A model generated the notes under the pieces. It did not search any database and was not told where the DNA came from. It saw only the letters and a list, made by a program, of their open reading frames with translations. Below, piece after piece: positions 53,020-60,030 of a stretch of 64,000 bases of DNA. Both the position numbers and the translations under genes were made by a program. This DNA is from Patiria pectinifera (Eukaryota > Echinodermata > Asteroidea > Valvatida > Asterinidae), in NCBI GenBank assembly GCA_029964075.1, contig CM057142.1:32552392-32616391 (forward strand), written 5' to 3'. The first letter of the stretch is position 1. The number at the start of each line of letters is the position of its first letter.

Positions 53020-53443
53020 CCGATTTATCGACGAAACCGAAAGTGGTATTATTTGTCATTTTGAAGAGCACAACTAAAATTATACTAGTGTATTGGCAAA
53101 ATTTCAAGCAACGGACTGACTAAGCTCTCCGGATATTCCATTCCCCATCATCGGTTAAAGTGTTCTGCTGGTGATGAGAAACCCAAAACCTCTGATGTAT
53201 ATTCCCGATTACATAAAATAAGTTATTTATTGTATATAATAAATAAAAATGAAAGGGTTGGTGTATCAATGAAAAGTCATGATGACATGATTTAGTTAAA
53301 CATACATGTAAAAGGCGTAGCGTTGCTGCATCAGCTTCGGGCAGTTTTAACGTGGTTTTTGGACAGCGCGCAACATCAAACGTCTCAACCACGAAATCAG
53401 TTCGTGTCGTTACTGCCTGTGTCTTTTTGGTGACTGCTATATA

Positions 53444-54036: not shown

Positions 54037-54421
54037 TACAGGCGGATCTGTTCAGTAAGTTTCCAAGTCTTGAAAGTATGTATTCTTTTATAATATCACA
54101 CCGTATGTCGGTTGCTTCTAATTCTCTTGGCTTGTTCTACGGATATTGTTTTGGTACATGTAGATGCTCCTCCTGTGTAAATTACGGGGGATAAAAGCTT
54201 GCAGTCTCCTCACACGCACCACACTCTATAGCAATCCCAGGTGTAAATCTAAGAATTATGCAAGTAATTTTTTTGTGGTATTTTTGTGGAACTCATGAAC
54301 GAACCAACGTATGCGAGTAGCAAAGGGCTTTTTTGAAATATCCCACTGAGGGTAGAGAACTTTGTATTGGAAAGCCTGCAGATCCGTATGGACTGTGACG
54401 ATAAAGCAATCGGAAGGAAAT

Positions 54422-55420: not shown

Positions 55421-56017
55421 TAAGCTGAGCGGAGGCTTGTTCCTAATGAATAGCTATAAACAGATTTAAAAAAAAAAGACTATAACCTAAGTATTTTTAT
55501 TCTGAAAGCATAATCTCCGAAAAAAAGTGATAAATTTAAATATGCATTTTCCATTGGTCTTATAAATAAATACATCCGGTAATCAATTCAATTAACGAGC
55601 ATCCGGACACACAAAGTAGGTAGTATATTTCTTTGCCTTCATTAATTTTTATAAAGTCTGTAACAGGTCTCGGCTGAGAAAACTCCCACCTTGCTATAAG
55701 TGTCATTTGAGACATGTTTTTAGACATAAATTTGGAGACAGATGTTGACCAGTTGACCGTTTATCGATGCAACCGGTAATAGGTGCATGGTCTAATTAAT
55801 TTGGTTTTTTTTAAATGTTTTTATTGAAGATCAAAATTACTGTGTATTGATAGAGTTTCAAGCAACGGACTTATATATCTCTACGGATATTTCAGTCACC
55901 CATAACAGTCCAGTGTCCGGTGATGAGAAACATAAAACCACTGTATATTATCTAAAAATATTACGATAGAGGGTTGGTGTATCACTTGATATAATTGTCT
56001 TGAGGAAATGGGTCAAT

Positions 56018-56048
56018 TATAAAAGGCCCAGCGTTGCTGCATCGGTCA
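56018..56048 (+). promoter_or_regulatory. TATA box and initiator of the secreted metallopeptidase gene
   Basis: TATAAAA lies at 56018-56024. A TCAGTTT initiator-like word has its A at 56048, exactly 30 bases downstream of the first T. This predicts a 5' UTR of about 63 nt before the ATG at 56111. In the decayed upstream copy the aligned sequence has GTAAAA instead of TATAAAA while the following GCGTTGCTGCATC block is kept, so the TATA box was lost there. Confidence 0.65.
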
Positions 56049-56110
56049 GTTTGAACGTGGCTTCTGAACGGCACACAACATCATATTCTGAAAATCCAAA
56101 CTTATTAGCC

Positions 56111-56177
56111 ATGAAAGCATTTAGTGTCGTCACTGCCTGTGTCTTTTTGGTGACTGCTATACATGCACATCTGTTGG
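56111..56177 (+). CDS. Secreted zinc metallopeptidase, exon 1 (signal peptide)
   Basis: This exon encodes the signal peptide of the secreted metallopeptidase: MKAFSVVTACVFLVTAIHA, with predicted cleavage after Ala19, then HLL. It ends in TTGG before a GTAAGT donor at 56178, leaving one base of a split codon (phase 1). Joined to exon 2 (which starts AT at 57779), the split codon becomes GAT, Asp23, and the frame runs on without a stop. The ATG is the first after the predicted start site and the only one giving a signal peptide. A degenerate copy of this exon is at 53391-53443, where the ATG is ACG and a transposon-like element interrupts the coding sequence. The pairing with exon 2 is my inference from phase and from the presence of a signal peptide. 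Confidence 0.78.
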
Positions 56178-57778
56178 GTAAGTCTGTAAATAGTGCACAA
56201 ATGAGCACTATAAATATGCATTTATATAATCAACTGTTTTACATTTGCGATTGGCCGCCACCCGCGCCCTTTGCAAACGTAACACTAACACAGTTCTTAA
56301 GATGAATTATTATTGTAACATTCCAAAAACACTGAAAATATTTGTACAAAATACGATTCCTATTACTCCGATTGTGATCTTAGCCATCATGGCTTCATAA
56401 TGTAATTTCGTCGTGTTATCTTTGCGATACGCACGACGAGGAGATACATGCGAAACCAGAGATAAAACCTGGGACAAATGCTCTTGAAATTTCCTATATC
56501 CCCCGGGCGATCGAGCTACTTGAATTGATTTCAAAAGAACCAAGGTCTCCTACAATGATGTATCTCGCAGCACTCATAACGCCAATGGGTAAAACAAATA
56601 CCAAAGATATACATGTATTGCAAAAAAACAAGTCGTGTGGTGTGGCGTCTGCGAATGTCACCAGCAATATTCCAACGCCTTTTATAGAACCACACCCTGC
56701 CTAAAAAAGCACGATATGTGACAGAGGGAACCCCCCTCATTTTGTGTTGGTCATTGTGTTACCAGAATCTCATGAGATATCTAGGGGTGATGTGTTAGGT
56801 AAGAAAGTCTAGGGTGTGCATAGGGTATAGGGAGATGGACCCCTTTGTCACATATCGTGCTGACTATAACACCCTGCTTTACATGTCTAGTGCAATAGTT
56901 GCACTTGACATGTAAAAAAAAAAATTACATGTCAAGTGCAATAGTTTAGTCTTACACTTACAAACAGTGGCGTAGCACGGTCGTTTTTTTTTATTCGGGG
57001 TACACTTGCACATGCGTGCTGAAATGTAGACACATTTTGTTTCTCCGGACACTTGGCCTCCATAAAATCAAATAGTGCGGGGGGGGGGTGCTTTTCAGGG
57101 CGATACAGGCACGAAATTAAAAAAAAAAGGCACCCGGAACGGCCGATGAGACACAAAAGGGCACGAATTATGTTTTAAAAAGGGCACTTGTTCAGAAAAA
57201 AAGGGGCACTTGTGAAAAAAGGGCACTTTTTACAAAATATTGGGGGGGGGGGGAAGTGGCGGTGAAAAAAAGGGCATTTGAATGGAAAAGGGCAGTCTTT
57301 TCAAAATATGGGGTAAATACCCCCTGGCTACGCCTATGCAATGAGATAGTGATTCTCTTTTTATGTACATGCCAAAGAAAGTGTGTACATGTACTTCTTC
57401 AAAGCGACAGTATGCAATAAATGAATTTCTGGCAGTGTGGGACACAGACGGCCAAAATAATTCTTAACCTTACGTTTATTTTTTGAATAATAATGGTTTT
57501 ACAGTTTTCTAACTGTGTTTGTACAGTTCAGGTGAACTACTTTGCCCCCCAAAAGCAGTACCGGTTTAATGATTTAATAAATTATGACTGTTGTTTGTGC
57601 GATATTTAAACCTGAAAATACACGTACAGACTTTTCCTTTTTACAATATGTTTTGAGCATGGAACATTAAAAAACTTGTAGACATAAAAGGTAACCTCAC
57701 CAAAATTAGATGTTCGTAAGTTACCAAAAATGCGAGTTTGATATAAATGGGAGCTTGTGAACACATTTCCAATAACAG
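56178..57778 (+). other. Intron 1 of the metallopeptidase gene
   Basis: This is a phase 1 intron of 1601 bp. It carries a small inverted-repeat element (56708-56861), a hairpin with arms around TGCACTTGACATGT (56881-56946), and a repeat-rich block (about 56966-57339) in which AAAAAGGGCAC-like words recur and whose ends read GTGGCGTAG and CTACGCC. Nothing coding is apparent. Confidence 0.7.
56708..56861. mobile_element. 154-bp MITE in metallopeptidase intron 1
   Basis: The ends AGCACGATATGTGACAGAGG and CCTTTGTCACATATCGTGCT are inverted repeats. There is no coding capacity. Confidence 0.82.
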
Positions 57779-58741
57779 ATGAATCATTCTACAGTCCTGG
57801 ACGTTTTGGCGAGGTTATTCACCACGGTTATATACTTGAAAATTTCAAAATCATCAACCCAACACTAAACAATATGAAATACATCAATCGTTTTAAACGA
57901 AATTTCCCACCAGATTTCGACTGGCAGCTGGACCAAACTCCAGACGAAACCTCTCAACGAAACTTGGATCCTCTAGAAGAGAGGAAGACCGGCCGGGGCA
58001 CAGCCTGGGCCACGAGCGACTGCCAAAACGTCACTTCCGTCCCTGACGACATACGGGCCGAGTTTCCCTTGGACAACTTCTACCAGAAGTACACCCATGC
58101 GTACGGCATCCCTATCATCTCCTCGGCAGCGCCGGATGACGATGCGTTGATCCGGGCGTGTTACGTCGTGCGCTTCCTGCTGGCCGACCGCAAGGACTTG
58201 CGCGATGCTATGTACGACGCGTACGGACGGGTCGGTGTCATCGGCTTCAGTGAGAATACCAACGACATCCCTGAGCACAGTCATCTGAGCGATACCTGGA
58301 ACGACCGGGCTAGGGGTCTCGGAGGGACTTTAAGAAATCCAATCTCAACGGATGGAGAGGAGAACCTACTCTGCTACGGCTTCATGCGTGACAGATGGTA
58401 CGAGGAGGACGTCCTGGTGCACGAGTTTTCTCACGCTATCCATTTGGTCTCCTTGAAACTAGTCGATAGCGGCTTCAACTCGAGGCTCCGGCAAACCTTC
58501 GATGAAGCTAAACTTAATGGGCTGTGGAGCTACACCTATGCTGGCTGGAATTACCGCGAGTACTTCGCGGAAGGGGTGCAGTCCTTCTTCAACGTGGAGG
58601 CACACCGCACATTCCGGGACAACATCCACAACGACATCAGCACCCGGGCGTCGCTCAAGGACTACGACCGGCCGCTGTACGACCTGCTCGTAGAAGTGTT
58701 TCCTTGCATGAATCTCATCGTTGATAAGTGCGACAACCAAG
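57779..58741 (+). CDS. Secreted zinc metallopeptidase, exon 2 (pro-region and catalytic domain)
   Basis: This 963-nt exon encodes residues 23-343 of a predicted 358-residue protein. It opens after an AATAACAG acceptor. A furin-type RFKR site is at residues 60-63, suggesting a propeptide. The catalytic part begins near GIPIISS. Conserved-looking blocks are DIPEHS, WNDRARGLGGT, GEENLLCYG, VLVHEFSHAIH (His237, Glu238 and His241 as zinc ligands and base) and NYREYFAEGVQSFF (Glu283 or Glu287 as third ligand). This HExxH...ExxxE layout marks a gluzincin-type metallopeptidase. I recall similar proteins, annotated as hypothetical or lethal-factor-like peptidases, in bacteria, fungi and some marine animals. 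Five cysteines here plus one in exon 3 give an even number, and NVT is a potential N-glycosylation site. From about 57960 the exon is clearly GC-richer than the surrounding DNA. The substrate is unknown. Confidence 0.88.
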
Positions 58742-59210
58742 GTGAGTTGACTCAAGAAATACATGAAAAGTCCTCTTGGGAACACGGAAATAAATATTAT
58801 GGACCATTAGACCCAGTAACTGGGGTGCTAGCTACAATCCTGGCCAAATCTCGCTGGGCCTCCAACCTCCCGGTCCCCGTTCAATTTTGTATCTCATTGC
58901 GCGGTGTGTGCTCCATCAGCTGGAGAAAACAACATTGACAGGGGGAGCGGGGGAGTGGGTGACCGTGGCAGACTCAGGAAGTGTCCCAACCATTTTGGCC
59001 AGGATTGTAGAACTCATGATCATTTTTTTGGAAATTTCATTCTCTTCATTCAGAACTTGTTCAGAAGCAGTCAGTAACAGTATGTTTTGTTGTTGTTTTT
59101 TTTTTTTATCTTACGGTGGGCTTAGAAAAAACCCTGACCATCTTAATTCAGACGCACGCTTTTGATCACTAATCCCCTCTTCCTTAATCTCTCCAATTGA
59201 ATCCACTCAG
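58742..59210 (+). other. Intron 2 of the metallopeptidase gene
   Basis: This is a phase 1 intron of 469 bp between GTGAGT and CCACTCAG. The frame of exon 2 stays open for 65 codons into it, to 58938, but the encoded residues show no relation to the catalytic domain. A T-rich run is at 59095-59107. Confidence 0.6.
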
Positions 59211-59257
59211 ATCTTGCAGCCAATCAACAACTCCGCATGGACTGTACGTCAACCTAG
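59211..59257 (+). CDS. Secreted zinc metallopeptidase, exon 3 (C-terminus)
   Basis: Exon 2 ends in CAAG before a GTGAGT donor (58742). A pyrimidine-rich stretch ending CCACTCAG precedes 59211. Joining the two completes the split codon G+AT (Asp344) and adds LAANQQLRMDCTST before a TAG at 59255-59257. The added Cys pairs with the otherwise odd fifth cysteine of the mature protein, which supports the splice. Without splicing, the frame would run through to 58938 with a low-complexity tail unlike the catalytic domain, which I consider an intron read-through. Intron 2 would be 469 bp and phase 1, like intron 1. Confidence 0.68.
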
Positions 59258-59394: not shown

Positions 59395-60030
59395 AAATCT
59401 TGCAGGTGTAAAACTAAGATTTATGCCAGTATTTATCTATTTTTTGGTGGCATTTTTTTGTGGAACTCGTGAACCAACGTTTACTTGTAACGAGAAAGTT
59501 TTTTTTCCCCGAGATATCACATACGTAGATAACATTGTAATGGAAACTATAGGCCTACAGACTAGACATGGACAATGACGATAAAACAATCGGATAAGGA
59601 AATAGGCCCCTAATTACAAACTTGAGATTCGCGTTTGTCGAGTCAAAAAAACGCAGAGTGATCGGGAAGACAACTATTTCACTAGACATTGCCCAGTTGA
59701 GTAGTAAATATTTTTGTCTGAACAGAATAAGGATCACGAAAGTTTCCAGTACAACCATTTGTTTTGTTTTGTTTCGAAGAAAAACAGCGTGCACTCTCCT
59801 GACACGCAATACACTCTATCAATCCCAGGTGTAAACTGAGAATTATGCAAGTAGCATTTTGGGGTTGCATTTTTGTGGAACTCACCAACCAGCGTTTACG
59901 TGTAGCGGTAAAGGGCTTTTTAGAGATACATGTATTTCATTTCAAAGGCAGAGAACTTTGTGATCGAAACGAGGCCAGTCGAGTTATGGACAATAGACAT
60001 TCTAACGAGGAAGCCCTTTTCGATCATGTT
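59395..60030 (+). repeat. Local duplication in the 3' flank of the metallopeptidase gene
   Basis: The sequence around CAGGTGTAAA, AAGATTTATGC and TTTTTGTGGAACTC at 59402-59475 recurs at 59825-59885. The pseudogene unit has a single version (54240-54300). One extra copy has therefore arisen in or beside the 3' UTR of the intact gene. I see no coding capacity. Confidence 0.6.

Follow-up and report, generated by a model that had tools for sequence, protein, structure and literature searches.

A predicted secreted zinc peptidase of likely bacterial origin in the genome of Patiria pectinifera

The window analysed here is a stretch of 64,000 nucleotides from the echinoderm Patiria pectinifera (assembly GCA_029964075.1, contig CM057142.1, positions 32,552,392 to 32,616,391 of the forward strand). 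It contains a gene, at 56111..59257 on the plus strand, that appears to encode a secreted zinc peptidase with relatives in bacteria. The gene was rebuilt from the sequence as three exons, all on the plus strand. Exon 1 (56111..56177) supplies the ATG and a hydrophobic stretch (MKAFSVVTACVFLVTAIHA...), probably a signal peptide, and ends in a GTAAGT donor in phase 1. Exon 2 (57779..58741) holds the pro-region and the entire catalytic domain, and is backed by its open frame, by homology and by structure. Exon 3 (59211..59257) contributes DLAANQQLRMDCTST and the stop codon. Both introns are in phase 1 and have GT..AG ends, with GTAAGT and GTGAGT as their donors. This splice model is based on splice-site consensus and on matching exon borders in paralogs. 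A preliminary description of this DNA had claimed a gene of 358 residues, and a three-exon gene with a product of exactly that length is indeed present, its motifs at the expected positions. Since exon 2 sits inside a 398-codon open frame and its product matches bacterial proteins, the gene is, judged by its sequence, not a chance frame.

The motifs of the window protein start at residues 60 (RFKR), 185 (DIPEHS), 196 (WNDRARGLGGT), 215 (GEENLLCY), 237 (HEFSH) and 283 (EYFAE). The HEFSH motif (residues 237-241, 58420..58434, plus strand) is predicted to provide two zinc ligands and the catalytic Glu. Tyr276 (58537..58539, plus strand) stands seven residues N-terminal of Glu283, the first residue of EYFAE (residues 283-287, 58558..58572, plus strand), and aligns with the oxyanion Tyr of the Pro-Pro endopeptidases (PPEPs). 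The WNDRARGLGGT block (58297..58329, plus strand) contains RxRGxGG, which is near-invariant among the bacterial relatives.

These relatives are numerous. The product of exon 2 is 39-50% identical to bacterial proteins, with a best E value of 5e-61 within the candidate set. The window protein fits the bacterial family over the whole catalytic domain, through the blocks PE, RxRGxGG, EEN, HEFxH, Y-7-EYxAE and YDP. A likeness to bacterial proteins had been proposed in the preliminary description; searches of plasmids, species genomes and Myxococcota now place the catalytic domain in a bacterial family. A scan across the species genomes of bacteria and archaea returned at least 592 pattern stretches, at least 347 of them confirmed, and the best 80 were kept. 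Planctomycetota account for 35 of these 80, Bacteroidota for 29, Verrucomicrobiota for 10 and Gemmatimonadota for 2, with one each from Myxococcota, Poribacteria and Armatimonadota, and one other. A separate protein search of Myxococcota, to which a Sorangium hit belongs, found the domain in 25 of 377 genomes. Many of the bacterial relatives have N-termini that, read by eye, seem signal- or lipoprotein-like.

The predicted active site is well kept across these sequences. Every one of the 89 bacterial rows has an equivalent of Tyr276, as do 25 of the 26 further rows from Myxococcota. For Glu283 the figures are 88/89 and 25/26, and for Glu287 they are 87/89 and 18/26. The HEF[SA]H pattern played no part in finding the 26 Myxococcota rows, which come from the protein search; 25 of them have the first His, 25 the Glu, 25 the second His, and 25 each Tyr276 and Glu283.

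A structure model of the catalytic domain, built with 38 aligned sequences, has a predicted local distance difference test score (pLDDT) of 92.6 and a predicted template modelling score (pTM) of 0.91. A longer model leaves the pro-region ill-defined. When the domain model is compared to solved structures with Foldseek, the top 19 matches are PPEP-3, PPEP-2, PPEP-1 and anthrax lethal factor, at E values from 2.4e-4 to 2.3e-2 and identities of 10-16%. Five of the 19 reach E <=0.001, and the best (2.4e-4) has probability 1.00. After these comes leukotriene A4 hydrolase, with an E value of 0.1 and a probability of 0.13. The claim of a lethal-factor-like catalytic domain is supported, in that the predicted fold best matches the Pro-Pro endopeptidases and lethal factor.

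Which of the two glutamates of EYFAE binds zinc had been left undecided in the preliminary description. In a profile alignment to PPEP-1, HExxH falls on HExxH, Tyr276 on the oxyanion Tyr, and Glu283 on Glu185 of the Glu184-Glu185 pair. According to PMC12828418, this pair includes a zinc ligand, and in PPEP-3 Tyr190 and Glu197 are seven residues apart. The spacing of Tyr276 and Glu283 is the same. By this alignment Glu283 is favoured as the predicted third zinc ligand; Glu287 more likely belongs to the second shell, because it is Glu283 that aligns with the zinc-ligand pair of PPEP-1 and Tyr276 with its oxyanion Tyr.

The protein can be set against several known groups. With PPEP-1, PPEP-2 and PPEP-3, zinc proteases that bacteria secrete and that have the ATLF fold, it shares its predicted fold (Foldseek probability 0.99-1.00), HExxH, a predicted third-ligand Glu some 40 residues on, a Tyr seven residues before that Glu, and apparent secretion. 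It differs in its low identity of 10-16%, in a larger domain with the RxRGxGG and EEN blocks, and in having a pro-region, added cysteines and introns. The likeness to anthrax lethal factor (the ATLF domain) has an E value of 3.0e-3 at probability 1.00, and HExxH plus a distant Glu correspond to the zinc ligands of the toxin, which PMC5668564 gives as His686, His690 and Glu735. The window protein is, however, a single apparently secreted domain that lacks the toxin's other domains. In terms of sequence, HExxH, a distant Glu in an ExxxE helix and a Tyr seven residues before the Glu are all present, as in M34, while the ATLF fold is seen through the predicted model and a remote match.

Other families fit less well. 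MtfA (family M90) is cytosolic. PMC5668564 describes its active site as a close relative of the one in lethal factor. Bacterial relatives score weakly for the M90 model (PF06167), L039 with E 3.2e-5 and 24.1 bits against a cut-off of 26.2, and three relatives with two domains (L030, L037 and L041) exceed that cut-off when the whole protein is scored. The window protein, in contrast, has no match to PF06167 in Pfam at E 10, and an M90 assignment was rejected on score. Astacins, ADAMs and matrix metalloproteinases (MMPs) are secreted animal zinc zymogens, and these metzincins carry the motif HExxHxxGxxH. The window protein instead reads HEFSHAIHLVS, so a metzincin assignment is out; that the protein stands apart from the usual animal secreted proteases, as first proposed, therefore holds. 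Svx and the M60 peptidases are likewise secreted gluzincins, but HExxH and Glu are 22 residues apart in Svx (as given in PMC9266454) and 41 in the window protein. An M60/Svx assignment was rejected on this spacing.

The family as a whole lies between M34 and M90, and none of the models in the scanned copies of Pfam and NCBIfam is specific to it. Ten bacterial relatives reached no Pfam or NCBIfam cut-off for the catalytic domain. Among 29 further relatives scanned with Pfam, 26 stayed below the cut-offs for the domain, and L030, L037 and L041 exceeded those of both ATLF and M90 as whole proteins. Each of these three has a second HExxH stretch, and their scores are protein-wide sums; the sole single stretch at E 0.001 is the M90 match in L030, around the second site HELAH. 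In the literature, no paper that names this family or an echinoderm ATLF-type protease was among the matches listed, for a search over titles and the starts of abstracts.

The window gene is not alone in its genome. The 613.5-Mb assembly holds five copies: the window copy, two on contig C423 (25 kb) and two on contig C1. The same five loci come up with the window exon, with a paralog and with a bacterial protein as query. By its contents this is an animal genome and very probably an echinoderm one: it has a bindin stretch (E 1e-33), bindin being a mark of echinoderms, and eight collagen IV C4 matches. A search of the assembly for COX1 gave no match. The three contigs include two of 54.9 and 29.8 Mb, and the window is part of the former. 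The four paralogs (L002 to L005) are 65, 62, 63 and 48% identical to the window copy, and all copies have an open catalytic frame. A phase-1 donor follows the catalytic domain at one and the same position in all five. With a slash at the exon border, it reads CAA G/GTGAGT in the window copy and L004, CAA G/GTAAGT in L002, CAG A/GTAAGA in L003 and AAA A/GTAAGT in L005. The window copy, L002 and L004 also share a similar next exon, of pattern [DE][LQ]AANQ.L[RK]M[DN]C, and no similar C-terminal exon was found for L003 or L005. In L004 this last exon (L103:5801-6427) continues into a repeated, mucin-like tail rich in serine and threonine, which make up 53% of the 117 residues counted; in L002 a shorter Thr-rich stretch follows. 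A search for first exons, with narrow limits on exon length and donor, gave a strongly hydrophobic candidate in C423 ahead of the L002 catalytic exon, a weak one ahead of L005, and none for L003 and L004.

That the relatives found outside this genome are bacterial, and that the entire catalytic domain is encoded by a single exon, exon 2, might suggest bacterial contamination or a recent, non-functional insertion. This has next to no chance of being right. The gene has introns and lies in a 54.9-Mb contig, it has four paralogs on two other contigs with every frame open, and donor and 3' exon are shared. On these same grounds contamination was ruled out.

The window copy and L002 to L004 retain all catalytic residues examined. 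Among these four, dN (non-synonymous divergence) is 0.19-0.35, and dS (synonymous divergence) is saturated in those pairs, as it is in 8 of all 10 copy pairs. L005 (G000:C1:22398175-22398900, minus strand) is different: it has a 309-codon open frame in which most catalytic residues are replaced. HVMAQ takes the place of HExxH, Arg that of Tyr276 and Tyr that of Glu287, with His237 and Glu283 retained. Because its dN and dS against the window copy are 0.54 and 1.64 (dN/dS about 0.33) and its frame is open, L005 looks to be under constraint and not decaying. It is likely a secreted pseudoenzyme.

It could be argued from L005 that all of the animal proteins are now secreted binders and enzymes no longer. 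This paralog lacks equivalents of the catalytic Glu, the second His, the Tyr and Glu287, yet it is open and apparently constrained. Given that the other four copies keep every catalytic residue examined, such a general loss of activity is very improbable.

The five animal genes group together in a careful tree of 59 out of 120 rows, where a branch supported at 100/99 separates them from the rest. The animal clade reappears, with support 99, in a fast tree built from the full 120. The careful tree omits the other 61 rows, and the trees leave out L006, L011 and duplicate entries for a gene. As to the alignments, L041 is absent from A4 to A6, four plasmid-record rows are absent from A5 and A6, and 46 of the 84 rows of A5 are absent from A6. 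Domains that cover 150 profile positions or fewer were dropped from later sets. Among the usual signs of a transfer, genome integration and introns are present, and nesting within an unrooted tree of bacteria plus one animal gives no placement. Since there are introns, paralogs, shared exon borders and a single animal clade, the gene is best read as a single old acquisition from bacteria that was then duplicated. A viral route was considered and rejected: phage records gave 0 matches at E 1, 0 of 24 pattern stretches in viral contigs were confirmed, and no viral structure was matched at E 0.001.

Sequence and structure model thus support an animal member of a bacterial family with a lethal-factor-type fold, outside the known animal protease families. 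More fully, the gene would encode a secreted gluzincin-type zinc endopeptidase zymogen, an old bacterial acquisition that was duplicated and remade. The probability of this reading is put at roughly 0.78.

Several results weigh against it. Pfam gives a single match for the window protein, to ATLF (PF07737), at 12.9 bits with a cut-off of 27.4; paralog L003 comes closer at 25.8 bits. NCBIfam has no match for the window protein. A single-sequence search of solved structures found nothing at E 10, the best E value of a profile search was 0.013, and the target-normalised TM scores for the Pro-Pro endopeptidases are a moderate 0.50-0.66. For these reasons kinship to M34 is remote. Because HEF[SA]H was part of one of the two patterns used in the genome scan, the conservation of this motif in the best 80 is there partly by construction. 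RFKR is not seen in the paralogs. The animal clade sits on a long branch in an unrooted tree that does not resolve its sister group. Finally, the direction and number of transfers are inferred from a sample in which this animal is the one eukaryote.

Those features of the tree would also suit an old eukaryotic (or opisthokont) family that most animals lost, and that is shared with bacteria by descent or by reverse transfer. The five animal genes are however on one branch (100/99), and the other rows span Planctomycetota, Bacteroidota, Verrucomicrobiota, Gemmatimonadota, Myxococcota, Armatimonadota and Poribacteria. Such a history is therefore improbable.

If the reading of an old bacterial acquisition is right, one transfer from a bacterium took place long ago. 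The gene would since have acquired introns, together with an exon for the signal peptide and a pro-region, and would have been duplicated. The enzyme would enter the secretory pathway. A proprotein convertase would cleave it, either at the basic residues ahead of TGRG or at RFKR, and so set free a domain that cuts extracellular proteins, Glu238 serving as the base and Tyr276 stabilising the oxyanion. As a guess, the substrates may be proline-rich or collagen-like matrix, mucus or microbial surface proteins, and L005 may act as a binder or decoy.

The early steps of this pathway are partly as first described. The window protein is apparently secreted. Its hydrophobic N-terminus is there, and the probable signal peptide is a reading by eye of the first 19 or so residues. 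The proposed furin-type site RFKR (residues 60-63, 57889..57900, plus strand) is present and possibly cleaved, though it is seen in the window copy only and has no aligned counterpart in the paralogs. What four of the five copies do have in common is a basic stretch right before [TS]GRG: RK in the window copy (Arg91-Lys92, 57982..57987, plus strand), RRK in L002, and RR in both L003 and L004. L005 has no basic stretch there. A site may also lie elsewhere in the pro-regions of the paralogs. Arg91-Lys92 is the likelier start of the mature enzyme.

Family members are also found on plasmids. A tblastn search of plasmid records matched 53, at 29-39% identity: 51 from Rhizobium and one each from Gemmatirosa and Paraburkholderia. 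In 2 of the 4 Rhizobium plasmid regions inspected, nod genes are nearby. On p42d of R. etli the family gene adjoins nodA, and in R. tropici it is two genes away from a NodA-family gene. With the nod-box consensus and at most 3 mismatches, no nod box was found ahead of the rhizobial gene, and L007 had none. The single match, in L009, stands directly before nodD2. On the Paraburkholderia plasmid pSYM the family gene adjoins a short S9-peptidase-like gene. Plasmid homologues are annotated as hypothetical protein or glycoside hydrolase (L009:5830-6744, L011:5127-5693, L010:3755-4711). On some Rhizobium plasmids, L006 included, the annotation splits the gene in two, and in one case it places a transposase beneath the match. 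Contigs of Gemmatimonadota and Bacteroidales (L014, L019, L024, L025 and L049) have second, more distant family copies beside the first.

Some bacterial relatives are fused to other domains, and these offer a hint of the substrate. From the best 80, 39 distinct proteins were scanned. The same-frame partners among them are 11 cyclophilins, 4 sulfatases, 2 DPP-IV domains with prolyl oligopeptidase (S9), 2 VHL beta domains, 1 AmiA-like amidase and 1 PKD domain, at rates that are inflated, since 30 of the 39 (one, L012, is also in the first ten) were picked for open frames longer than the domain. The in-frame VHL beta (PF01847) fusions are at L069:2761-4056 and L076:4824-6119. Cyclophilin, DPP-IV and VHL beta all handle proline or hydroxyproline peptides. 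Because of these partners, and because the nearest folds are Pro-Pro endopeptidases, there is a hint of proline-rich substrates. The sulfatase and amidase partners may point to general matrix or wall breakdown.

One could go further and take the protein for a true MEROPS M34 member, or a strict Pro-Pro endopeptidase that cuts Pro-Pro bonds. PPEP-3, PPEP-2 and PPEP-1 are its best structural matches, the Tyr-7-Glu spacing is that of PPEP-3, and the cyclophilin, DPP-IV/S9 and VHL beta fusions lean the same way. Set against this are identities of just 10-16% in the best 19 matches, all of them PPEPs or lethal factor, a Pfam ATLF score below the cut-off, the selection of long frames behind the fusion rates, and the sulfatase, amidase and PKD fusions, which are not indicative of proline. 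On balance this reading is unlikely.

A speculative account of the biology can be sketched, and is held to be doubtful. An exported bacterial protease for proline- or hydroxyproline-rich proteins may have been captured by an echinoderm ancestor, and may now remodel collagenous or mucous matrix of the animal itself, or attack the surface proteins of microbes. The dead sister L005 would be a regulator or decoy, and the Rhizobium member beside nodA would act on hydroxyproline-rich proteins of the plant wall.

The flanks of the window gene hold some further features, all on the plus strand. A TATA-box-like TATAAAAGG (56018..56026), named for its resemblance to the consensus, lies about 90 bases 5' of the ATG, and an initiator-like TCAGTTT follows some 20 bases downstream of it. 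At 53076..53441 (53076-53190 and 53309-53441) the promoter region and exon 1 recur in decayed form, 73-74% identical to parts of 55833-56161 and with ACG at the position of the ATG. The 3' flank at 59783-59928 has a copy at 54193..54340, of 80% identity; a genome search located this 3' element in three places, all inside the window. Between the decayed exon 1 copy and the 3' flank copy, no match to the catalytic exon was found. The three pieces 53076-53190, 53309-53441 and 54193-54340 look like remnants of a tandem duplicate of the window gene. The rest of the 64-kb window was surveyed for open frames of at least 110 codons.

This analysis brings to light a broad family of bacterial zinc peptidases that lacks its own model in the scanned Pfam and NCBIfam copies, and an animal genome that holds a diversified set of such peptidases. 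The fusion partners, taken with the PPEP fold, amount to a testable substrate hint for bacteria, rhizobia and echinoderms alike. L005 would be a naturally occurring example of a protease that became a pseudoenzyme, following what is likely to have been a transfer.

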